Shown one piece after another: positions 48,674 through 62,037 of a stretch of DNA of 64,000 nucleotides. The stretch is from an uncultured Bacteroidales bacterium (GTDB lineage Bacteria > Bacteroidota > Bacteroidia > Bacteroidales > CAIXZF01), in NCBI GenBank assembly GCA_903923925.1, contig CAIXZF010000051.1:47091-111090 (forward strand), written 5' to 3'. Both the position numbers and the translations under genes were made by a program. Position 1 is the stretch's first letter. Each line of letters begins with the position of its first letter. Below the pieces are notes generated by a model. That model was given only the letters and a program-made list of their open reading frames with translations. It had not been told where the DNA came from and searched no databases.

Positions 48674-51600
48674 CTATTTCAACAGCAAAACACTTCCCTT
48701 GTATTTCTTGATGTTTTCGTTAACAGGTTTTAGCTTAATGAAATAAACATAAACTCCGGTTTCGCAGATCTTACCGCTGTTATTTTGGGCACCATTCCAT
48801 GGCATGGAAGGGTCGGTAGTTTGATAAACAAGGGCGCCCCAGCGGTTAAATATCGACATTTCATATTTATTATCTGTTCCCCAGTTTATTCCGAAAGGCC
48901 CGAAATAATCATTCACTCCATCGTCGTTAGGGGTAAAGCTGTTTGGAATATAGAATGTAAAGAAATCGTGGATGTTTACAATATTGTAAATTGTATCGGA
49001 ACAGCCCATCTCATTGAGTGCTATAAGCTGCACAATGTAGGTTCCGGTGTCGGAATAAACATGATTTGGCGAAAGTGCAGTATCCGTTCCACCGTCGCCG
49101 AAATCCCATTGATAGGATGTGGCATACAATGAAGTATTATCGAAGAAAACTTCCGGATTAATGATGGTGGTATTATCAGGATTTGCAACAAAACCAGCTG
49201 TAGGGATCTTCCATACTTTTACGTAAGCCGGATATTCAATTTCGTTTTCACAACCGGCCCCGGTAACTACCTTCACACTTACTGTATAACTTCCTGTATT
49301 GTAATACGTATGCAAGGGATTCTCCATAAGAGAACTGTCCCCATCACCAAATTTCCAGATAATATCCTGTGGTGGCGGATCAATGGTGCTGGTAAAATCA
49401 ACTGCCAGTGGCTGGCAGCCCTGCAATGGAATGCCATAAAACTGAATATCTGGTATTTTATTGAAAATCAGATTGATGGAATCGATACTTAAACAACCGT
49501 ATTGATTGGTAACCTTTACCCAGTAATTACCCGTACTTGTGGCCGGATAAGACTGCATAGAGTTTCCATTCTGCCATTGGTAAGAATTAAAGGTAAATCC
49601 CGGACTGATCCATAAGGTATCAAATCCACAAAGTGCAGTGTCGCTTCCAAGATAGGGCTGTGGCATTGGGTTTACAACCACAATTAAGGAGTCGGAGGAG
49701 GAGCAGTTGTGCGATGTAACTGTAAGATAATAATATTGGGCATTCGCAGGCTGTACGTTTATGTTCTGAGTGTTTGCTCCTGTACTCCAGTGATACTCCA
49801 ATCCGCCGGAACCATGCAGGTTCAGATTCTGTCCGTTACAAATACTGGTATCGGGACCGGCATAAGCCAGCGGAATCTGATTTACGTTAATGGTAACCGT
49901 GTCCTTTCCGGTACAGGCATTTGTAGTAACGGAAACTATATACGTTGTTGTATCTCCCGGTATAACATTGAATGCAGCGAGAGTGGAGCCGTTATTCCAA
50001 TGGTAGCTGCCTCCATTGAAGGCCTGTAAATAAATAGTATCGCCATTGCAGATGGTTGTATCCGGCATTAAGCCGGGGTCGGGTATTGGTTTTACAAGTA
50101 CCTGAAAAAGTGTGTCGTAATTACAGCCGTAGTCATCCGTTATTTGAACATTATAGGTATAATTGCCCGGCAAAGTGGGCTTAATTAAGGCCGTAGAATC
50201 TGTTTCCGATGTAATAAACGGACCAGTCCAGGTGGCATGATCCATAAATACATTATATCCCCAGTTTGTAGGTAAAAGTGTTGGATCAAGGTTCAGCTGC
50301 CACCAGAATACCCAACCATTGTCGGCACCCCAGTAGTCGCAGACCTGAAGGTTCCAGGTTCCGTTAAGCGGACAGCCAATTAAACTGTTGAACGACTGAC
50401 CAGGTTTGAAAACACCGCTATCCAGCATAGTATATGGAAGTCCCGGTACCAGGGCACCCATTCCGGAACCTGCGTAAACATTCATTGAATCCCAGGTTGG
50501 TGTCATCGACCAGCAATAGGTCCATCCGTAGCCTGCAGGATTCTGAACCGGATTTGTGATGCAGGAAGGAGGTGAGGAACAGTCGCAGGAAGGATCATTA
50601 TCTCCGCTTGGTCCCATACAAGGCTCTCCCAGGTATGCACCTCCCGATTGAATGTATTTTTTTACGTTGGAATATTGTCCGTTCGGACAGATAATTCTCA
50701 TGTTCAAATCGCCAATGAATGAATGTTCCATATTCACACAAACCGAAGCAATATCGGAGGCATTAGATACCGCCTGCCCGGGGTTAAAACAATTGAATGT
50801 GACATATGTATTATAGCACATACCTCCAATGGCACCTCCATCGGGAATAAATGTTGCGCTGTCGTACCTTAAGCTCGACGACTGATGATGCGAAATCGGA
50901 TCAATCAAAACTGTGGAATTATCGTTGTACCCCACTTTAAACTGCAAACTGTCGCCCAGGCAAATTGAAGGTGGTACTGTTACCTGGCTTATCGGGTTTC
51001 CTGCAACACGCACTCTGAGACCCAGTGCATTCATTGAGAAACAACCACGCTGATCAACAATTTTCAGGGTAACATCATACCCTCTTACGGAGTCGTAAAC
51101 ATGTTTAACGAGCAACCCGGAATCAACAGTATTATCACCGAAATTCCAGTAAAAACGGCTTGCCGGATCCTCCTGATGATATGCAAAATCGTTTTGCGGA
51201 TAAACGCCAAGAGCCGATAAAGTTATTGTATCACCATGGCAATTATTGATATACATGGAATCCAGAGGAGGGCTAAGGTTTATGGTATCAAGAGCTGCAA
51301 CGATTTTCTGACAAGGTTCAATACAGGAAATTTGTGCATTCCATCCTGCTCCGTGGAGGGTGCCATTTGATTTGAAAGAAAAGGTAAGGCATCCTGTCAT
51401 ATTCAAAATAGTAGCCCAAACAGGTGTCAGGGAAAGGCCGTTGTTGTTGTTAAATTTTCCGATGAGCGGATCCTGATCTGTCATCCCATCATACACATAA
51501 AGCGTATCGGAAGTATGCACATCAAAATTGGCAAAATAAACCTTTGTATAAGTGCTAACAGGGTTGTTAGAACAGATTATCAGCTGGTTTAATTCATTTG

Positions 51601-51742
51601 GCCCATAATTATTATTTCCTCCCGCATCAACAAAAGTGCCCTGACAGGTAAACACAAAAACCGAATCGGCGATATTATACACCTGCCCGAACGATATTAG
51701 TGAAAGGAATGTAAACAACAATGAAAAAAGTAGTTTTTTCAA
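48674..51742 (-). CDS. Secreted CUB / P-domain / PKD protein with CHU_C (T9SS type B) C-terminus
   Basis: The 1022-residue surface protein has a signal peptide (LLFSLLFTFLSLISFGQ). A CUB-like domain occupies about 25-145 (SDTLYVYDGMTDQDPLIGKF). A PKD unit (FYWNFGDNT) and a proprotein-convertase P-like domain with MEHSFIGDLNMRIICPNGQ and GTWNLQVCDYWGADNGWVFWW follow. Ig-like 'LxxxYxWSTGANTQNINV' units and two more PKD domains (IWKFGDGDSS, YQWDFGDGG) come next. The end is a gliding-motility-associated domain IPNSFTPNDDGVNDYF ... YKGSVLLLK. In Bacteroidota this end marks type B T9SS cargo. The start must be TTG 51742: an in-frame stop lies six codons upstream and no ATG is available. It has no catalytic motif and is likely an adhesin or matrix protein. 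Confidence 0.85.
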   Translation of the reverse strand: MKKLLFSLLFTFLSLISFGQVYNIADSVFVFTCQGTFVDAGGNNNYGPNELNQLIICSNNPVSTYTKVYFANFDVHTSDTLYVYDGMTDQDPLIGKFNNNNGLSLTPVWATILNMTGCLTFSFKSNGTLHGAGWNAQISCIEPCQKIVAALDTINLSPPLDSMYINNCHGDTITLSALGVYPQNDFAYHQEDPASRFYWNFGDNTVDSGLLVKHVYDSVRGYDVTLKIVDQRGCFSMNALGLRVRVAGNPISQVTVPPSICLGDSLQFKVGYNDNSTVLIDPISHHQSSSLRYDSATFIPDGGAIGGMCYNTYVTFNCFNPGQAVSNASDIASVCVNMEHSFIGDLNMRIICPNGQYSNVKKYIQSGGAYLGEPCMGPSGDNDPSCDCSSPPSCITNPVQNPAGYGWTYCWSMTPTWDSMNVYAGSGMGALVPGLPYTMLDSGVFKPGQSFNSLIGCPLNGTWNLQVCDYWGADNGWVFWWQLNLDPTLLPTNWGYNVFMDHATWTGPFITSETDSTALIKPTLPGNYTYNVQITDDYGCNYDTLFQVLVKPIPDPGLMPDTTICNGDTIYLQAFNGGSYHWNNGSTLAAFNVIPGDTTTYIVSVTTNACTGKDTVTINVNQIPLAYAGPDTSICNGQNLNLHGSGGLEYHWSTGANTQNINVQPANAQYYYLTVTSHNCSSSDSLIVVVNPMPQPYLGSDTALCGFDTLWISPGFTFNSYQWQNGNSMQSYPATSTGNYWVKVTNQYGCLSIDSINLIFNKIPDIQFYGIPLQGCQPLAVDFTSTIDPPPQDIIWKFGDGDSSLMENPLHTYYNTGSYTVSVKVVTGAGCENEIEYPAYVKVWKIPTAGFVANPDNTTIINPEVFFDNTSLYATSYQWDFGDGGTDTALSPNHVYSDTGTYIVQLIALNEMGCSDTIYNIVNIHDFFTFYIPNSFTPNDDGVNDYFGPFGINWGTDNKYEMSIFNRWGALVYQTTDPSMPWNGAQNNSGKICETGVYVYFIKLKPVNENIKKYKGSVLLLK

Positions 51743-53622: not shown

Positions 53623-53655
53623 TTGATGATTATTGGGTTTTAAGTCTTATATTTG
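53623..53655 (+). promoter_or_regulatory. Bacteroidota-type promoter for the lipoprotein-caspase unit
   Basis: TTG at 53623-53625, 22 bp, then TATATTTG at 53648-53655, 35 bp before ATG 53691. Confidence 0.68.
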
Positions 53656-53690: not shown

Positions 53691-54692
53691 ATGAGCATCA
53701 AATCAACTTCTGTAAATTTGCTGATAATCATGCTACTAATAATGGTTGGAAGCACATCCTGTTCCACATCCTACAAATACTCGCACAAGAAAAACAGGGA
53801 ACAGGTGAGTATTCATGTGGATGAAGATCCTATGTATTTTAATCAAAAAGATCTCCTGGCGCAGAAATTCGATTCCAAACAAGTTACCCGTGGTGTTTTT
53901 CTGGCAGTTCCTTTCATCGGGCAGGCCATTTCCTATGCAACAAATTCTGTGAAAACTTTCATACAGTCCGACAAAACAAAATATTTCGCGAAATATGGTG
54001 CCGGAAAATCACAGTTGTTCTTTTATAATACCATTTCGACCACAAATTTTATTGACCCTTCAGGGATGCAATTCAAGGGGTTCAAGCTGATCCGGACTGT
54101 TGAAAATAGCGATCATAAAACAGATACCGCTTTTTATGCAAGCTTTTCCGTTGATCTGTCAAACCCTTATGAAATAGTTAATAATTCATCTTTCCGCCTG
54201 AAACTCGATTCTTTAAACGTTAAGTACTCAAAGGCAAAAGTCAGTGGAACAAATTATTATCTCCCCTGGAAATGGTTTACTAAAAACCGCCACCGCCTAA
54301 ATTTAGATATACAGATTGCTGTTCGTTCGTCATGGATAACAGAACAAACCCAGATTTACAACAACATTGAACTAGGAACATTCACTCTTAGTTTACGGAA
54401 TATTCCACTGGATCCCGAAGCCAGTGACTACAAACAATATTACGATCGCGTTAAAGACACAGTGCTAAGCGGTAATTGTTTTCTTGTACCCCGTTCCTTT
54501 GCCAATATGAAAGGTGAATCTGCCCAATTAAGCAAATGCTGGAGTCAGGGGCTATACGAAATCAGTGCAAATGTGAATGAAGCCGGGAAGCCGGGTTTGG
54601 TTACACCTGTGCCGAACAGTTACGATTTTATAATGAGCCAGTTCCAGTTCTACCTCATGAACCAGGTTGTTCCAAATATGAAATTTCCCTGA
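53691..54692 (+). CDS. Lipoprotein of unknown function coupled to a caspase-like gene
   Basis: The 333-residue protein has a lipoprotein signal (LLIIMLLIMVGSTSCSTSY; lipobox GSTSC). The rest is a soluble domain I do not recognise, with AVPFIGQAISYATNSVKTF, NYYLPWKWFTKNRHRLNLDIQIAVRSSW and a C-terminal FIMSQFQFYLMNQVVPNMKFP. Its stop codon overlaps the start of the next gene by one base (TGATG), so the two products are probably made together. The lipoprotein could anchor or receive the caspase-fold protein at the envelope. That is inference from the overlap only. Confidence 0.6.
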   Translation: MSIKSTSVNLLIIMLLIMVGSTSCSTSYKYSHKKNREQVSIHVDEDPMYFNQKDLLAQKFDSKQVTRGVFLAVPFIGQAISYATNSVKTFIQSDKTKYFAKYGAGKSQLFFYNTISTTNFIDPSGMQFKGFKLIRTVENSDHKTDTAFYASFSVDLSNPYEIVNNSSFRLKLDSLNVKYSKAKVSGTNYYLPWKWFTKNRHRLNLDIQIAVRSSWITEQTQIYNNIELGTFTLSLRNIPLDPEASDYKQYYDRVKDTVLSGNCFLVPRSFANMKGESAQLSKCWSQGLYEISANVNEAGKPGLVTPVPNSYDFIMSQFQFYLMNQVVPNMKFP

Positions 54693-56518
54693 TGAACTTA
54701 CGACATAGTTTTTGCCCAAATATCGGCACATTCGTACATTCGCCTCCAAAAGTCATCAGTTCCTGGTATATTTTGCTTTTCCTGGTTTTCAATAGTAGCC
54801 AGTTGTTTAGCCAACAGTCAAAACTTGCCCTGCTCGTGGGCGAATCACGTTACGATTCAGCCACCGGCTGGGTCCGCCTTCATGCCTTCAAGGACATTGA
54901 AATCGTTAAAAAGGCACTGCTCTATCATGGTTTTGCCGACAGCAATATCCTTGTTATCCAGGATCATGATGCCACAAAAGGAAAAATAATTGCCGCATTC
55001 AATAAACATCTCCTCGGCCGGTCTGCGGCTGGAGATATCGCTTTTTTCTACTATTCCGGGCACGGGCAGCGTGTTCAGGATAAAAACGGTGATGAAACAG
55101 ACGGCTACGACGAATCCTTTGTTCCCGTTGATGCTCCGCAGAAATATCAGCGAGGAGTATACGAGGGCCAGAATCACCTTACGGATGATGAATTCAATAA
55201 CCTCCTCCAGCCCTTGAGAAATAAGCTTGGAACAAAAGGGACTGTATTGGTTGTAGTTGATGCCTGTTTTTCAGGAAATATTACCCGTTCCTTCCTTTCA
55301 GCTGTGGCCCGTGGCAGCAGTGTTCTCATGGCAGGGCCAGACTACAAACCGGCCAGCCAGGTAAAAAACAATTATTCAGCTTCGGATTTTTCGCAGGCAG
55401 AACAAGCTGATCGTTCTCCAGAGTCTCAGATGATCACTTTAACGGCCTGCCGCGATTATGAAACCGCATTCGAGCTTTCGGACTCTTCAGGCGGTGTTTT
55501 TACCTCTGCGTTCACCAAATGCTTGTTAAACACCACAGAAATGATCAGTTACGATCAGCTCTATAAGAATATCTGCATAGCAATGGCCGACGACCCAAGG
55601 CAGAATCCCACGATTGAAGGCAGCGCCAATCTGAGTGTTTTCGGAAACACTCAGATTTTATCAAGTCCTTCCCCGAATATCTTTAAGAAATTATCCTTAG
55701 CTGATACTGTTATCAGCCTTTGCATTAAAATCACCAATCCCAGGCTATCAGCTTCAATAACCTCCGCACTTGAAAATTGTTCCTTTATAAATATTTCTAA
55801 AGAAACTGCAGATTTATACCTTTTCGACAGTCTGGTAAATGGAAAATCCTGTTATTGGCTCACAAACACTATGGGACTATGTTTGGATCAGGATTGTATT
55901 GACAGTACTTCGGCAGGAAAATCTGAAAATCGTTCATGGAACACACTGACTTATAGCATACTGCAGTACTTACAGGCAAGAAACCTGAACAAAACGATTC
56001 TTTATTGCAGGGAGTTACAATCCGAACTGCAGCTGATTCCGATCTCCGAAATAAATAAGGATCCTTATCTCTTCAATGCAAAAACAGAATTTGCAGTAGG
56101 TGATACCTTTACGTTCAGGCTGAAAATTAAAGGTCCGGCCGGGCGTTTTGCCTTTTACAGCCTGGTAAATATTTCAAACGGCAGTAAAACTTCATTGCTT
56201 CGCCCAACAGCCGACAAAGGCCCCGACGAATTCCGTTGTCCGCTTAATGAATTTGTAACCTTGAAGAATGAGAGGTTTGTTTTTTCTGATGCCGGTAAAG
56301 AAACTTTCCTGCTGATCTGTTCCGATGAACCCATCGACCTGAAATATCAGTTTACTGAACCAAGCAACATAACTGCCAAACGCGGTGAAGTAAGCTTTTC
56401 ATTCAATCAGCTGAATGCTGCCCTAAAAACCACACAGAAGCGTGCCCTCAGTAGTCCCAAAATCAGCGTATTTAACCTGCCGGTGGTAGTTAGGAGTTCT
56501 AACTACTTTTTTAAATGA
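54692..56518 (+). CDS. Exported caspase-fold (C14/metacaspase-type) peptidase
   Basis: The 608-residue protein has an N-terminal hydrophobic segment (WYILLFLVFNSSQLFSQQ) after a 25-residue lead, suggesting export. The caspase-like p20 domain runs from KLALLVGESRY near residue 46, through catalytic His in AFFYYSGHGQRV near 125 and the metacaspase-like insert DGYDESFVPVDAP, to catalytic Cys in VVVDACFSGNITRS near 190. It continues to LTACRDYETAFE and FTSAFTKCLLN. The C-terminal half (about 340-608) contains a beta-rich DUF4384-like segment (FAVGDTFTFRLKIKGPAGRFAFYSL), often fused to such peptidases. The start overlaps the lipoprotein stop by 1 bp. Its 3' end overlaps the convergent WD40-caspase gene by 16 bp. 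Confidence 0.85.
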   Translation: MNLRHSFCPNIGTFVHSPPKVISSWYILLFLVFNSSQLFSQQSKLALLVGESRYDSATGWVRLHAFKDIEIVKKALLYHGFADSNILVIQDHDATKGKIIAAFNKHLLGRSAAGDIAFFYYSGHGQRVQDKNGDETDGYDESFVPVDAPQKYQRGVYEGQNHLTDDEFNNLLQPLRNKLGTKGTVLVVVDACFSGNITRSFLSAVARGSSVLMAGPDYKPASQVKNNYSASDFSQAEQADRSPESQMITLTACRDYETAFELSDSSGGVFTSAFTKCLLNTTEMISYDQLYKNICIAMADDPRQNPTIEGSANLSVFGNTQILSSPSPNIFKKLSLADTVISLCIKITNPRLSASITSALENCSFINISKETADLYLFDSLVNGKSCYWLTNTMGLCLDQDCIDSTSAGKSENRSWNTLTYSILQYLQARNLNKTILYCRELQSELQLIPISEINKDPYLFNAKTEFAVGDTFTFRLKIKGPAGRFAFYSLVNISNGSKTSLLRPTADKGPDEFRCPLNEFVTLKNERFVFSDAGKETFLLICSDEPIDLKYQFTEPSNITAKRGEVSFSFNQLNAALKTTQKRALSSPKISVFNLPVVVRSSNYFFK

Positions 56519-59500
56519 AACACAAACTGCCCGTACATATGTCCGACATTCTGTATCGGGCCCCAAACAGGAAGCTGATTCGCGTTGTTTCCAACAGCAC
56601 TGATAACCCTGGCGCTCAGATCTCCGATAGAGAGGTCCTCACGGGCATCTTTCAGGAAACTTATTAAACTCCAGGCAAAAGGACTGTGTCCACTGCCGTT
56701 TATCTCATCATCAACATTTTCTTCCCTCCCGCTGGCAAGTGCATAGCGCGAACGCGACTCCTCCAGTTTATCAAGGGATGTTGTTGGAGCTCCTCTTTCA
56801 CTCAACACAAGCGTTCCTGAATAACAGGCATCCATAATTAAAAGAATATGTTTGGCTTTAATCGCTTTTATATAGGTCACAATCTGGCTGTTCTGAATAT
56901 AATCTGTGCGCATACCAATCCTGGCGTTGTAAGGAATCCAGTATCCTTCGTTAACCTTTTTGTCCTTAAATCCATGCCCGGCATAATACACCAGCAATTT
57001 ATCATTCTCATTCAGGGTATCAATCAGGCGTTCAAACTTCGAATCCAGACTCTCCTTTGTAAAATCTTCATTTAGCAGCTCAAAAGTATGCTCCTTTGTA
57101 AACTGGTATTTTTCCCATAACAGGTTCTCAAGATCCCTCACATCCGAAACCGGAGTTTTTAATTTTGGCCAGTTGGTATAGTTATTTACGCCTATCATCA
57201 GCAGGTAACTCTCTCCTGTAATTTTATGTTCAATAGGTTTATTCACCGAAATTTCCTTTACTCCCCTTTGCCAAGCCTCTGCCTGTTTTTGTTTTTCCTG
57301 CTGAGCTAAGGCTTCAGTTTCAGCAGCTTTTGCCTGTGACTCAAGCACCAGCGAACACTCTATACTGTAATTCGGCATTCCTGCCACAAGATTCAGGTAT
57401 TCAAATTGCTTTAAACTCCCTGAATACCGTTGCTCTGCCTTTACTATTACGGTTCTCCAGTTATCCTTCAGAAGAGATTCAAAAGCAGGATTTCCTTTGG
57501 GGATATATTTCTTACCTTTTACAAATACCCAATACTTTTTCTTAATCTGATCAAAGCATTTTATCGAATCAATCTTCACTTCAACGAGGGTCTTTGAATT
57601 GAAAAATGCCTGGCGGAATTCATCTGAAATCGATTTAGAACAATTATCGATTACAGTTTTTAACTTCTGTTGATTATCCTCTACCCTGAGCTTGTAATCT
57701 TCAAGCCTTTCAGCATAGGTTTGCTCCGAATAATCAAGTTTTATCTTACTGATATTGATACTTAAACAATTCAGCAAATCATGAAAATCATTCTGAATTG
57801 CATCGTTTGCATTCAATTGCAGGGTATCTTTTAATTTAAACTCATACTCAGGATTAGGCTTATATACCTTCGAAATGATTTCGTAGGCGCTCGGAAGATC
57901 ATCAAGAAAAATAAAGGCGATACCGCGCAAGAAATGAAGATCATAATTCTTTGGTTGTATTCTCAGTAAGCGGCCTATTGCAAGCTGTGCCTCTTCATTC
58001 GATTTCTGTGAAAGCAGATAGGCAAATGCAGAACCAAGCATTACATCTCTTTCTGTTTGATCGTTTGTCTGCAGCTCAGTAAAATACTCCTGAGCCTCGG
58101 CATAATTAGCTGTAAGCAATGCTGTAAAAGCAATGTATTTTTTTTGCCCCGGGTAGTTTTTGTTTTGCTCTCCCAAAAGTTTCAGGTCGGCATAGGATTT
58201 GAAATAATTTTTAATGGAATAATAACAAAGACTTCGGTTCATGAGAAATTCCGGTTTTCTCTGCTTGGAAATAAGCAGGGTCAGGTCCTCAATTGCCTCC
58301 TGGTATAAGCCTGCCTTTTTCATTGCTAATGCTCTTAAAAGGCGGTAATTATCAGGGTTTCTCGAATAGGCCATTGCGCTATCTATTGCCTTCCTGCACT
58401 CCGAATATCTTCCCAGATTAAACAGTATCATCCCTTTCAATCCCCAGCAAAGTGAATCCTGAATGTATAGTCTGCCAATAGTATTGCAATCGGCAAGCGC
58501 ATCCTCATTGTTGTTCTTCTCATAGTTAATCTTACAACGCTCAAGTAAGGCCTCCTTCCCTAAGGGTCTGTATTTCAGCGCATCGGTAAAGTCTGCAAAA
58601 GCGTCGGCCTGTTTCCTTAGTTTTAAACGAATCATACCGCGCTTATAATAATAATCGTAACCCGGAAATATTTCAATAGAATGGCTGCAATATTCCTCAG
58701 CCTTACCTAAATTAAAATTATTAGACGCAAGTTCTCCCTGGTTCGATAACCATTGCGACAGAATTCTTCGCAGATCAAAATACTGAACTGTTATGTAATC
58801 CTTATTAATAGCAAGATATTTACCGTTGCTGGAAATTATAGCCCTTGGAAGATTCGGGCCGGTAGGACCACCCTCCGAACTAAAAATTAATTGCCCTTCA
58901 GGAACATACCATATCCTTACAGCCATATCCATCGACCTGCTCACAAGATATGGGCCCTGGGGAGCAAATACCAGGCAGCTTATCGTTGTAGTAATGTCGT
59001 GAATACCTTTTACAAACTTTCCCGTTTCGAGATCGAATATTTCTATTGTTCCGGATTTAAACCCTATTGCCAGATAAGCGTCATCCGGACTCACAGCGAC
59101 TGCCGCTACTTCATTTTTCTGCTCATTAAAAACAAGATATGAATCACTGGATTTTGCTTTGTTTACGCAGCTAACCGAATTATCATCAAGAACGGTAATA
59201 ATTCTATCAGATTTATTGCAAAGCGCGAACATTTTCACATTCCCGGTTACCGGATCTGCACCACTGCTAACAACCTCCTTGGATGGCCAGCTCCATTTCA
59301 TTAACTTATTATTATCGAGGAAATAAAGTGTATTTCTTTCGAATATGCTGAATTCAAAACTTTTAACCTCAGACCGTGATTCGATTACATCAATAATTGT
59401 TCTGCCTCCACGTGTAACGAAAATCTTGTCGCCCCAGGTCTGAAAGGCAACATAGTCGTCGATTGGTGAAGTTAAAATTCGTGTAATTATTCTCCCGTCA

Positions 59501-59733
59501 GCAACGCCTGTAAGAGTTGTCAGGCTCCGATCCTGTATGTTGTGAACTACCAGTAATTTATCGTTTCCATAGCTGATAATTGTATCGCCACCATGAGAAA
59601 ATGCTATTGCGGAAATCGATTTAGTATGAGCCTGGTATTTGTATATTTCCTGTGCATTGCCAACCTTAAAAATAAAAAGGAAAATTAGTGCAATTGCACA
59701 TCTGCTATAAAATCTAATCCCCCTGTTTTCCAT
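56503..59733 (-). CDS. Exported WD40-TPR-caspase-fold protein
   Basis: The 1076-residue protein has a signal peptide (CAIALIFLFIFKVGNAQ). WD40-like repeats span about 30-310 (SISAIAFSHGGDTIISYG, VAAVAVSPDDAYLAIGFKSG, MAVRIWYVPEGQLIF). About seven tetratricopeptide repeats follow (about 335-640; YYYKRGMIRLKLRKQADAF, PEFLMNRSLCYYSIKNYF). A helical linker leads to a C-terminal caspase domain (about 850-1076): YLLMIGVNNYTNWPKL, His in LLVYYAGHGFKDK, Cys in ILLIMDACYSGTLVL and GSGHSPFAWSLISFL. This order of sensor, scaffold and protease resembles cytoplasmic death-type proteins, but the signal peptide places it outside the cytoplasm. It begins 12 bp after the helical-repeat gene, and its 3' end overlaps the other caspase gene. 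Confidence 0.88.
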   Translation of the reverse strand: MENRGIRFYSRCAIALIFLFIFKVGNAQEIYKYQAHTKSISAIAFSHGGDTIISYGNDKLLVVHNIQDRSLTTLTGVADGRIITRILTSPIDDYVAFQTWGDKIFVTRGGRTIIDVIESRSEVKSFEFSIFERNTLYFLDNNKLMKWSWPSKEVVSSGADPVTGNVKMFALCNKSDRIITVLDDNSVSCVNKAKSSDSYLVFNEQKNEVAAVAVSPDDAYLAIGFKSGTIEIFDLETGKFVKGIHDITTTISCLVFAPQGPYLVSRSMDMAVRIWYVPEGQLIFSSEGGPTGPNLPRAIISSNGKYLAINKDYITVQYFDLRRILSQWLSNQGELASNNFNLGKAEEYCSHSIEIFPGYDYYYKRGMIRLKLRKQADAFADFTDALKYRPLGKEALLERCKINYEKNNNEDALADCNTIGRLYIQDSLCWGLKGMILFNLGRYSECRKAIDSAMAYSRNPDNYRLLRALAMKKAGLYQEAIEDLTLLISKQRKPEFLMNRSLCYYSIKNYFKSYADLKLLGEQNKNYPGQKKYIAFTALLTANYAEAQEYFTELQTNDQTERDVMLGSAFAYLLSQKSNEEAQLAIGRLLRIQPKNYDLHFLRGIAFIFLDDLPSAYEIISKVYKPNPEYEFKLKDTLQLNANDAIQNDFHDLLNCLSINISKIKLDYSEQTYAERLEDYKLRVEDNQQKLKTVIDNCSKSISDEFRQAFFNSKTLVEVKIDSIKCFDQIKKKYWVFVKGKKYIPKGNPAFESLLKDNWRTVIVKAEQRYSGSLKQFEYLNLVAGMPNYSIECSLVLESQAKAAETEALAQQEKQKQAEAWQRGVKEISVNKPIEHKITGESYLLMIGVNNYTNWPKLKTPVSDVRDLENLLWEKYQFTKEHTFELLNEDFTKESLDSKFERLIDTLNENDKLLVYYAGHGFKDKKVNEGYWIPYNARIGMRTDYIQNSQIVTYIKAIKAKHILLIMDACYSGTLVLSERGAPTTSLDKLEESRSRYALASGREENVDDEINGSGHSPFAWSLISFLKDAREDLSIGDLSARVISAVGNNANQLPVWGPIQNVGHMYGQFVFHLKK

Positions 59734-59745
59734 TTGTATAATTAA

Positions 59746-62037
59746 TTAAATCCCGAATGCTTTCCGGATTTCATCCGGTTTCTTTAACTTCCTGAGTTCT
59801 TTTACAAGGTTCGGATCTTCACTTTCAGCATAAGTACTGATCTTTTTTAACAGTACTTCCAGCGATTTACCGCTGCTGAAACATGCCTTTGGATCCCTCT
59901 CGTTTTTATATAGTTTATAGTAATAATCGTATGCCTTTTTACCCTTCTTATATATCGTTTTCTGCTTTTTGTTTTTGGCAAAAAGCGATACAAAATGTGA
60001 ATATTCTTCCAGAATTTTCTTTTCCACTACAATCAGGTCAGCTAACTGTTTCTTTAAATCTGATATCCGCTGTTCAATTTTCTGGCCTGCTGCAAGCTTC
60101 TGGTTGAGGCTTTTCAGGTCGCGGAACTCATCTTTCTGCTTTTTTAAAGGTTTAATTTCTGATTCATACAAACCGGGAAATTGCTTTTTATAATCCGCTT
60201 CCAGCAAGGGTATCTTTCTGTCGGTAATGGTATCAATTGCTACTAATTGCGGATAATTTACCGAAAGATTTTCAAGTTGCTCAAGAATTTTTTTACCAAG
60301 TCCTATTCTTTCTGTAATCACATCCTTCTTCTTGTATTCCGAATATGATTTGGCAATGTCACTGATTTCATTTTTCCTGATCTCAGGGTAACGCTTTTTG
60401 TAAACCTTATTCTCCTCCTGAATCTTCAGATCAATAGAAAGAAACTGTTTTTGAAGTATTGAAAACTGCTCATCAAGTGTGGTCAGTTTCTGCAGAAACG
60501 ACTGCCCCTTGTCAACTTTCTGCTCTACAGTGGAACTGTTTTTAAATTTGGTTATCTCCACATCATAAGGCTCTACGTCCTTCTTATATATGGCCTTGTA
60601 TGTTTTGCTGTATTCATCCCTGACCTTTACAAAATAGATCTGAATCTTGGTGTCATAATAATTCAGACTGTCTATTTGCTCTGAAAACATCGAAAGACTT
60701 GTGATAATTTCCTTGCCCTTGCTGATTCTGGGAACAAGTGCATCCTGTGTTTTAAATTCCTCTGCTTTCTGTTCAATCGGTATTATCTGGTTGTTATATA
60801 TATTCGGTTGTTTGTTCTTGTAGATATCAATAATTGAAGGCAGCTTTTCCTGAATTAATGTTTGGTAGCGTTGCAGTGTATCGTATTTTGACTTCAGATT
60901 TTTAAGCTCCTTAATGTAGAAATTACCAGCCTCCATCTTTAATTGCAATGAATCAGACTGGTCATAATCCTCGCCTTTGCCAGAATAATAGGACAGATCA
61001 GATTTAAAAAAACCTTGATAATTCTTACTGAAATCGCCCAGTATTTCCTTCTCTTTCTCTATTATCAAACTATCGAGCTTGTTTAACTCATTGTATTTTT
61101 CAAGATAAATTGATAGCGATTTTAAAAGGGAGGAACCCTGATGAATCCGTTTTTCAAGTTCAAATTCCTGTCTGTTTGATGCCCTGAGATCAAGCAGCGG
61201 TTTGATCTTTTTCATATAAAGTACGGAATACCTTACTTTCCCCGAATAGTTGGCGAGAAGCTTTTCTTCAACAACTTTTAATGAACTGTCGGTTTGAATT
61301 ACTTTCCTGAGTTGTGGTTCAAGCACATTTAAGGTCTTGACAAGCTTAAAACCTTCTAAATATTTAGCTTCCAGAGAATCTATTTCCTGGTACCTGGAGA
61401 TTCTGCCGGCAAAATCTGCAAGGTTTGTTTCGTAAACCTCTGGTATTTTTATCTTGTAAAATTCCTCGGCGGTTTTCTTGAAATTGGTAAGAGAATCATC
61501 ATTTGCAGTATATTCCGGATAATCCTCTAAAAGGCTTATATACTTATATGTTAGAAAATTTAGTTGTTTTGAAAGGCTTGGTATTTCTGTTCCTGCTGCA
61601 CTTTTATCAGGTTTGAGGGATTCCAGTTTTTTTAGTTGATTCAGGTAAAACCTATCGAGTTTTTTGTTCATAAGGTTTTTCGAAATTGAATCAATCAGTT
61701 TCAGCTGATAAGGAACAAAATACTCCATAGTAATATCCTTGGGAGCACTGATAAAGTATAAGGTATCGAATTTCGTATTTTCCTGTTTATGATGAAAAAT
61801 CAACTGCATGTACGATTCTTCATTCCTGTAATCCCAGATAACCGAAATTAATCCGTTCTCCTGTCGTTTGAATTTTTTGCCAAAGGGAACCCCGTTCCTG
61901 TAATTTATTTCTTCCGAAATAATCCTGTTCTGAAAATACGTTCTTGAGGGTCCGTTTTGTGGTAAAGCATGATCCTGTGCAAAACCATTGAGTCTGATGA
62001 CAACAGTAATTAGCAGCAATAAAATGATATTTCTCAT
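59746..62037 (-). CDS. Exported helical-repeat protein of unknown family, partner of the WD40-TPR-caspase
   Basis: About 763 residues from ATG 62037, which gives the signal peptide MRNIILLLLITVVIRLNGFAQ; the ORF track's earlier start adds 23 residues without function. A beta-rich N-terminal part is followed (about 180-720) by an apparently novel repeat of about 85-90 residues, each with a 'Y.kxxPxxYxxxIxP' line, then 'EF', then 'xxRIxxGKxILxxLxxL' and charged helices. Examples are KIPEVYETNLADFAGRI, QPNIYNNQIIPIEQKAEEF, YPEIRKNEISDIAKSYSEY and FPGLYESEIKPLKKQKDEF. The repeats are rich in Lys, Glu, Leu and Tyr and are probably coiled coil or alpha solenoid. I recognise no family. It is the first gene of a two-gene unit with the caspase protein 12 bp downstream. 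Confidence 0.65.
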   Translation of the reverse strand: MRNIILLLLITVVIRLNGFAQDHALPQNGPSRTYFQNRIISEEINYRNGVPFGKKFKRQENGLISVIWDYRNEESYMQLIFHHKQENTKFDTLYFISAPKDITMEYFVPYQLKLIDSISKNLMNKKLDRFYLNQLKKLESLKPDKSAAGTEIPSLSKQLNFLTYKYISLLEDYPEYTANDDSLTNFKKTAEEFYKIKIPEVYETNLADFAGRISRYQEIDSLEAKYLEGFKLVKTLNVLEPQLRKVIQTDSSLKVVEEKLLANYSGKVRYSVLYMKKIKPLLDLRASNRQEFELEKRIHQGSSLLKSLSIYLEKYNELNKLDSLIIEKEKEILGDFSKNYQGFFKSDLSYYSGKGEDYDQSDSLQLKMEAGNFYIKELKNLKSKYDTLQRYQTLIQEKLPSIIDIYKNKQPNIYNNQIIPIEQKAEEFKTQDALVPRISKGKEIITSLSMFSEQIDSLNYYDTKIQIYFVKVRDEYSKTYKAIYKKDVEPYDVEITKFKNSSTVEQKVDKGQSFLQKLTTLDEQFSILQKQFLSIDLKIQEENKVYKKRYPEIRKNEISDIAKSYSEYKKKDVITERIGLGKKILEQLENLSVNYPQLVAIDTITDRKIPLLEADYKKQFPGLYESEIKPLKKQKDEFRDLKSLNQKLAAGQKIEQRISDLKKQLADLIVVEKKILEEYSHFVSLFAKNKKQKTIYKKGKKAYDYYYKLYKNERDPKACFSSGKSLEVLLKKISTYAESEDPNLVKELRKLKKPDEIRKAFGI

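Follow-up and report, generated by a model that had tools for sequence, protein, structure and literature searches.

Two caspase-fold genes, each with a partner gene, lie side by side in the genome of an uncultured Bacteroidales bacterium. The locus raises the question of whether the four genes form one system and where in the cell this system would act. We analysed it within a stretch of 64,000 nucleotides (the window), taken from an assembly of 4.6 Mb in 117 contigs. A sequence-only reading had described two convergent units and the spacing of their genes, and the open reading frame (ORF) coordinates reproduced every junction to the base (Table 1). We propose that the four genes form one functional module of the cell envelope that serves proteolytic signalling, and we give this reading an even chance of being correct.

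Table 1. Features of the four-gene locus and other regions of the window (window positions)
Feature	Position	Strand	Remarks
Four very large ORFs	11886-32292		same strand; 1454, 2231, 1174 and 1864 aa
PKD-repeat protein gene	48674-51742		~2 kb from the cluster; exported; CHU_C type IX sorting domain; proprotein-convertase P-domain match
TATATTTG	53648..53655	+	matches the Bacteroidota -7 consensus TAnnTTTG; the lipoprotein gene starts 35 bp downstream; weak, with the motif present 58 times in the window
Lipoprotein gene	53691..54692	+	exact ORF, 333 aa; Cys24 lipid-accepting (codon 53760-53762); family undescribed
TGATG stop/start overlap, lipoprotein/metacaspase	54690..54694	+	1-bp overlap
Metacaspase gene	54692..56518	+	exact ORF, 608 aa; signal-like N-terminus; caspase domain aa 44-310; C-terminal region DUF4384-related
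Metacaspase catalytic residues	55061..55267	+	His124 (55061-55063), Cys192 (55265-55267)
Tail-to-tail overlap of both caspase genes	56503..56518	.	16 bp; not conserved in G001
WD40-TPR-caspase gene	56503..59733	-	exact ORF, 1076 aa; signal-like N-terminus FKVGNA/QE; WD40 ~aa 36-324; TPR ~aa 363-616; caspase aa 845-1056
WD40-TPR-caspase catalytic residues	56824..56976	-	His920 (56974-56976), Cys970 (56824-56826)
Gap between the two minus-strand genes	59734-59745	-	12 bp
Helical-repeat protein gene	59746..62037	-	exact ORF, 763 aa; exported; without Pfam family

Both caspases matched the Pfam family Peptidase_C14, with 79.1 bits for the metacaspase and 63.8 bits for the WD40-TPR-caspase (curated cut-off 21.4). 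The WD40 and TPR repeats of the latter were confirmed by Pfam. Complete His–Cys dyads had been claimed for both proteins, and we found them at H124/C192 and H920/C970. The dyad was intact in 88 of 93 metacaspases and 11 of 12 WD40-caspases. Enzymes of the metacaspase/orthocaspase type owe their Arg/Lys specificity to acidic S1 residues; Asp68 and Asp190 of the window's metacaspase align with Asp residues of metacaspases. Its nearest solved structures by sequence were the protein GSU0716 and metacaspases, and those of the WD40-TPR-caspase were MALT1 (caspase domain, E 1.7e-6) and metacaspases. DUF4384 exceeded its cut-off only in a homologue of the metacaspase (L110), not in the window protein. 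Judged from these sequence features, both caspases look active.

For the synteny analysis, each of the four proteins was searched in 148 genomes, nearly all from the same order. Apart from the window's genome (G000), these included one genome of the same family, G001, which belongs to a different genus. In G001, the genes for the lipoprotein, the metacaspase, the helical protein and the WD40-TPR-caspase are contiguous and run in one direction, with gaps of 3, 60 and 8 bp. Identities between the two genomes were ~37% for the lipoprotein, 43% for the metacaspase (caspase part), ~30% for the helical protein and ~27% for the WD40-TPR-caspase. Conserved synteny had been named beforehand as a check, and it was found: the renewed clustering of the four genes in G001 rules out chance as the reason for their linkage. 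A lipoprotein, a metacaspase and a WD40-caspase also cluster together in G027 and G378, and the complete set is known from two genomes only, G000 and G001. A functional link between the four genes is supported. The lipoprotein and metacaspase are probably translationally coupled through the TGATG overlap, and similarly tight junctions occur at two other loci (1-bp overlap in L127, 4-bp overlap in L136).

The same comparison bears on the idea that the locus holds two independent neighbouring units, the lipoprotein with the metacaspase and the helical protein with the WD40-caspase, which have no joint function. In the window, they stand on opposite strands and face each other, and paralogues of the helical protein occur away from caspases. 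The contiguous, co-directional set in G001 and the clusters in G027 and G378 argue against independence, which we consider very improbable. Since G001 keeps the set together but in one direction, the linkage is real, and the convergent overlap is a local rearrangement. The overlap had been put forward as a meaningful feature; this part of the sequence-only reading is not supported, and a role of the overlap as a regulatory device was rejected, because it is not conserved in G001.

The lipoprotein (lipobox VGSTS/C24) scored over the threshold of no Pfam or NCBIfam model and had no sequence match in the PDB. AlphaFold2 with 21 rows yielded a confident beta-rich core (mean pLDDT 76, core blocks mostly ~87–95), while an earlier 6-row model was weaker. 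Foldseek comparison of the lipoprotein model with the PDB gave no match at E<=0.001. The single sequence found no match in the genome contigs. A lipoprotein-only profile gave 6 matches in 393 genomes of the order and 13 in 395 genomes of the class, with the window's own genome counted in both. The gene lies within three genes of a caspase gene in G000 (twice), G001, G027, G378, G202, G681, G559, G428, G585 and G546. No caspase is nearby in three genera, represented by G468, G676 and four genomes that share a genus. Counted per genus, the lipoprotein stands beside a caspase in 9 of the 12 genera with testable loci, where G681 and G559 form one genus and G583 (contig end) and the weak G244 match are left out. 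PF00656 was present in 62 of 149 genomes of the order, with a few copies in each, so that about 2 to 5% adjacency would be expected by chance. The binomial probability of the observed count is ~2e-14 to 4e-10, the latter value for 5%.

A phylum search added one more genus, with a remote lipoprotein copy and no caspase; remote copies with no caspase nearby occurred in G754/G962. All these occurrences, with G468, G676 and the genus of four genomes, count against the signalling reading and mean that the lipoprotein has other roles too. In one genus (f172, L130–L133), the orphan lipoproteins have a conserved context of a 611-aa protein and short housekeeping-like genes, with no caspases. The weak profile match in G244 is a 503-aa protein (L112:7288-8799), located in what appears by eye to be an FHA/kinase-like cluster. 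A Lys/Arg-rich stretch after the lipidated Cys was considered as a caspase site and rejected, as lipoproteins that have no caspase nearby share it.

The helical protein likewise scored over the threshold of no Pfam or NCBIfam model. G000 and G001 are the only genomes in which it is clustered with caspases. Among the relatives whose surroundings were read, homologues elsewhere do not stand beside caspases; we therefore rejected the helical protein as a core part, and it looks like a family-specific addition. A paralogue on another contig of G000 (C107, L085:8068-10353) lies beside the gene of a 724-aa exported protein, with no caspase nearby, and has relatives in six other genomes of the order.

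The N-terminal export signals claimed for the locus stood up to inspection. The lipoprotein has its lipobox and the other three proteins have signal-like N-termini, which recur in homologues. Export-like N-termini were present in 92 of 92 testable metacaspases and 9 of 10 WD40-caspases, as against 2 of 22 sigma-factor controls, as judged by eye and by a permissive heuristic that 54% of unrelated neighbouring ORFs also pass. A T9SS C-terminal sorting domain (Por_Secre_tail or CHU_C) was absent from all four proteins according to Pfam and NCBIfam. The CHU_C protein encoded next door serves as a positive control and shows that this tag is in use. Surface lipoproteins are marked by an LES, in which acidic residues occupy positions of about +3 to +6 from the Cys (PMC5080379). 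The lipoprotein has no LES: in CSTSYKYSHKKNRE, the first acidic residue is at +14. With no T9SS domain in the four proteins and no signal for surface export in the lipoprotein, the module is predicted to be periplasmic. Of the two locations first proposed, periplasm or surface, the periplasm is therefore the better supported. Gene linkage, dyads and export signals are read directly from the DNA, and the mature proteins would presumably act in the periplasm.

Two further explanations start from export. According to the first, the caspase pair trims other exported proteins during their processing or maturation. Clan CD peptidases, namely gingipains and PorU, act in the Bacteroidota envelope, and this likeness counts for the explanation, as do the export of both caspases, their predicted Arg/Lys-type specificity and the T9SS cargo in the same window. 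However, regulation is a better match than bulk processing for the WD40-TPR architecture and for the many ECF sigma/anti-sigma neighbours (see below), and no conserved cargo-gene neighbour was recognised. We regard this role as rather improbable. The second explanation takes the proteins for exported scavenging or quality-control proteases with no signalling role. Secreted cysteine proteases are common and no regulator is linked in the window, but caspase-fold enzymes cleave selectively, and bulk degradation would presumably need neither sensor-type repeats nor a dedicated lipoprotein. Scavenging has hardly any probability in our judgment.

We then return to the signalling module and the wider setting of its metacaspase. 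We read 80 loci of metacaspase relatives (L139–L218), mostly from Saprospiraceae, Chitinophagaceae, Flavobacteriales, Cytophagales and Bacteroidales. The metacaspase relatives in these loci carry export signals and have exported TPR-CHAT, trypsin-like and M48-related proteases in their vicinity, and exported caspases were common across Bacteroidota. Neighbour families within three genes of a caspase were counted over all loci read, with one member of each annotated; as the loci had been chosen by metacaspase or lipoprotein, the counts describe neighbourhoods and not a random sample. The families were TPR-CHAT (31 loci), a 513-aa family with no Pfam match in the tested member (24), ECF sigma factors (23), anti-sigma-like membrane TPR proteins (17), a small exported protein, CHASE2 and FecR-like proteins (13 each; the last named by eye, with no Pfam match), the lipoprotein (11), M48-related (10), trypsin-PDZ (7) and trypsin-like proteins (6). 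A further lipoprotein family, remotely similar to the first (hhalign 96%), adjoins caspases in 5 of the 80 loci; one or the other family is present in only 6 of 80. One cluster that unites a lipoprotein, a sigma factor, a metacaspase and CHASE2 belongs to the culturable Cesiribacter andamanensis (L145). The neighbourhoods of exported metacaspases give the impression of an extensive protease network of the envelope that has not been described.

The window's cluster neither contains nor adjoins a gene for a sigma factor or an anti-sigma protein, and CHASE2 proteins are missing from both G000 and G001; these absences speak against the signalling reading. On another contig of G000 (C72, L229:9336-14005), an ECF sigma factor and an anti-sigma-like membrane TPR protein are encoded beside a convergent gene for an exported TPR-CHAT protease, and the same trio occurs in G001 (L230:9232-13869). 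For the anti-sigma-like proteins, a single membrane span is predicted, which leaves the TPR part outside. Their K/R content is 10% outside the membrane and 19% inside. With no basic enrichment outside, composition suggests no cleavage site, and a basic juxtamembrane site was rejected. The third caspase of the genome (C45, L086:1361-3361) combines a kinase-like domain and a caspase with one membrane span between them, and its gene adjoins a paralogue of the lipoprotein gene. If the kinase part is taken as inside, the single span places the caspase outside the cytoplasm. The catalytic loop reads, by eye, HLGLSPEK instead of the usual HRDLKPEN; the domain may be a pseudokinase, as it has no HRD motif.

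Such neighbourhoods also suggest cell death or defence in the envelope, where sensor-triggered caspase executioners would destroy proteins of the periplasm or the membrane and kill either the cell itself or a neighbouring one. In their caspase, CHAT and trypsin-like neighbours, the loci recall the conflict systems described in PMC7159879 and PMC8195603. Extracellular fratricide has been suggested in PMC3501461, and the PADLOC caspase profile matches both caspases. Against this, no known effector such as a pore-former or nuclease was recognised in or beside the cluster, and the conservation and tight spacing also suit stress control. We consider this explanation unlikely.

For the signalling reading, a possible course of events can be outlined. 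The lipoprotein would anchor the metacaspase at the membrane as its docking partner, regulator or first substrate. The WD40-TPR-caspase would be a protease whose repeats serve as sensor/adaptor or scaffold and encounter damage to the envelope or a foreign ligand. Activation would occur through self-cleavage or through one caspase cutting the other, and limited proteolysis after Arg/Lys would follow, with the metacaspase as executor. The output is suggested by the relatives only: there, an ECF sigma factor could be freed from the membrane-spanning TPR anti-sigma protein, or, alternatively, local envelope damage and cell death could result. We infer the interactions, the order of events, the substrate and the output in this scheme.

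The set was then compared with known systems. MALT1-type paracaspases, the best PDB sequence match of the caspase domain of the WD40-TPR-caspase, are eukaryotic and intracellular and have other accessory domains. Craspase reportedly combines the TPR-CHAT protein Csx29 with a linked sigma-factor regulator. The likeness lies in a caspase-family protease with a repeat sensor and a possible sigma-factor output, but the window has no linked CRISPR genes and its proteases are exported. For prokaryotic metacaspases, the part of the 2012 survey by Asplund-Samuelsson considered here (PMC3501461) names WD40 and TPR among the commonest extra domains, interprets N-terminal helices as possible signal peptides and reports multi-metacaspase operons in Bacteroidetes. 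An exported caspase linked to WD40 or TPR repeats is thus not unusual, contrary to the sequence-only reading. The caspase fold and HC dyad are shared, but that part of the survey mentions neither a lipoprotein partner nor a conserved set of exported genes, and does not place the proteins in the periplasm.

EACC2 caspase systems include CHASE2, trypsin-like peptidases, ECF sigma and TPR genes (PMC8195603). The envelope module would work along similar lines, but the caspases themselves are exported in the Bacteroidota loci. There, CHASE2 is a separate gene, absent from G000/G001, and no EACC2 or TRADD-N domain was recognised. As the caspase domain of the metacaspase directly follows the signal-like segment, an N-terminal EACC2 domain does not fit. 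The linked ECF sigma and TPR genes of EACC2 systems are missing at the window's cluster; many relatives have them, and in G000 they are unlinked. The two-gene EACC1 membrane systems (PMC7159879) resemble the locus in having a caspase with a membrane-linked constant gene just upstream, but EACC1 has a transmembrane helix, whereas the window's partner is a lipoprotein. The EACC1-associated caspase model gave 41.6 and 78 bits for the two caspases, below its cut-off of 140.

No literature match was found for the four-gene set (subscription papers and supplements lay outside the scope), and the original impression of a system not obviously described holds for this set and for the lipoprotein family. 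What is new relative to known caspase systems is the combination of exported proteases and their own lipoprotein, with no linked sigma or CHASE2 genes. To our knowledge, the bacterial caspase-type systems with outputs worked out all act in the cytoplasm. As a broader picture, possible but doubtful, Bacteroidota may have a periplasmic, inflammasome-like network of metacaspase, WD40-TPR caspase, TPR-CHAT, trypsin-like and M48-related proteases. The lipoprotein family would be its membrane platform or first substrate, and the network would connect through the inner membrane with ECF sigma factors and a kinase-like caspase fusion; the window would hold a compact version. Caspase signalling would gain a place in the bacterial envelope through a conserved exported set that has a lipoprotein family of its own. 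The four genes are a small, testable set, which points to a protein family without annotation and may help to explain the large number of caspase genes in many environmental Bacteroidota.
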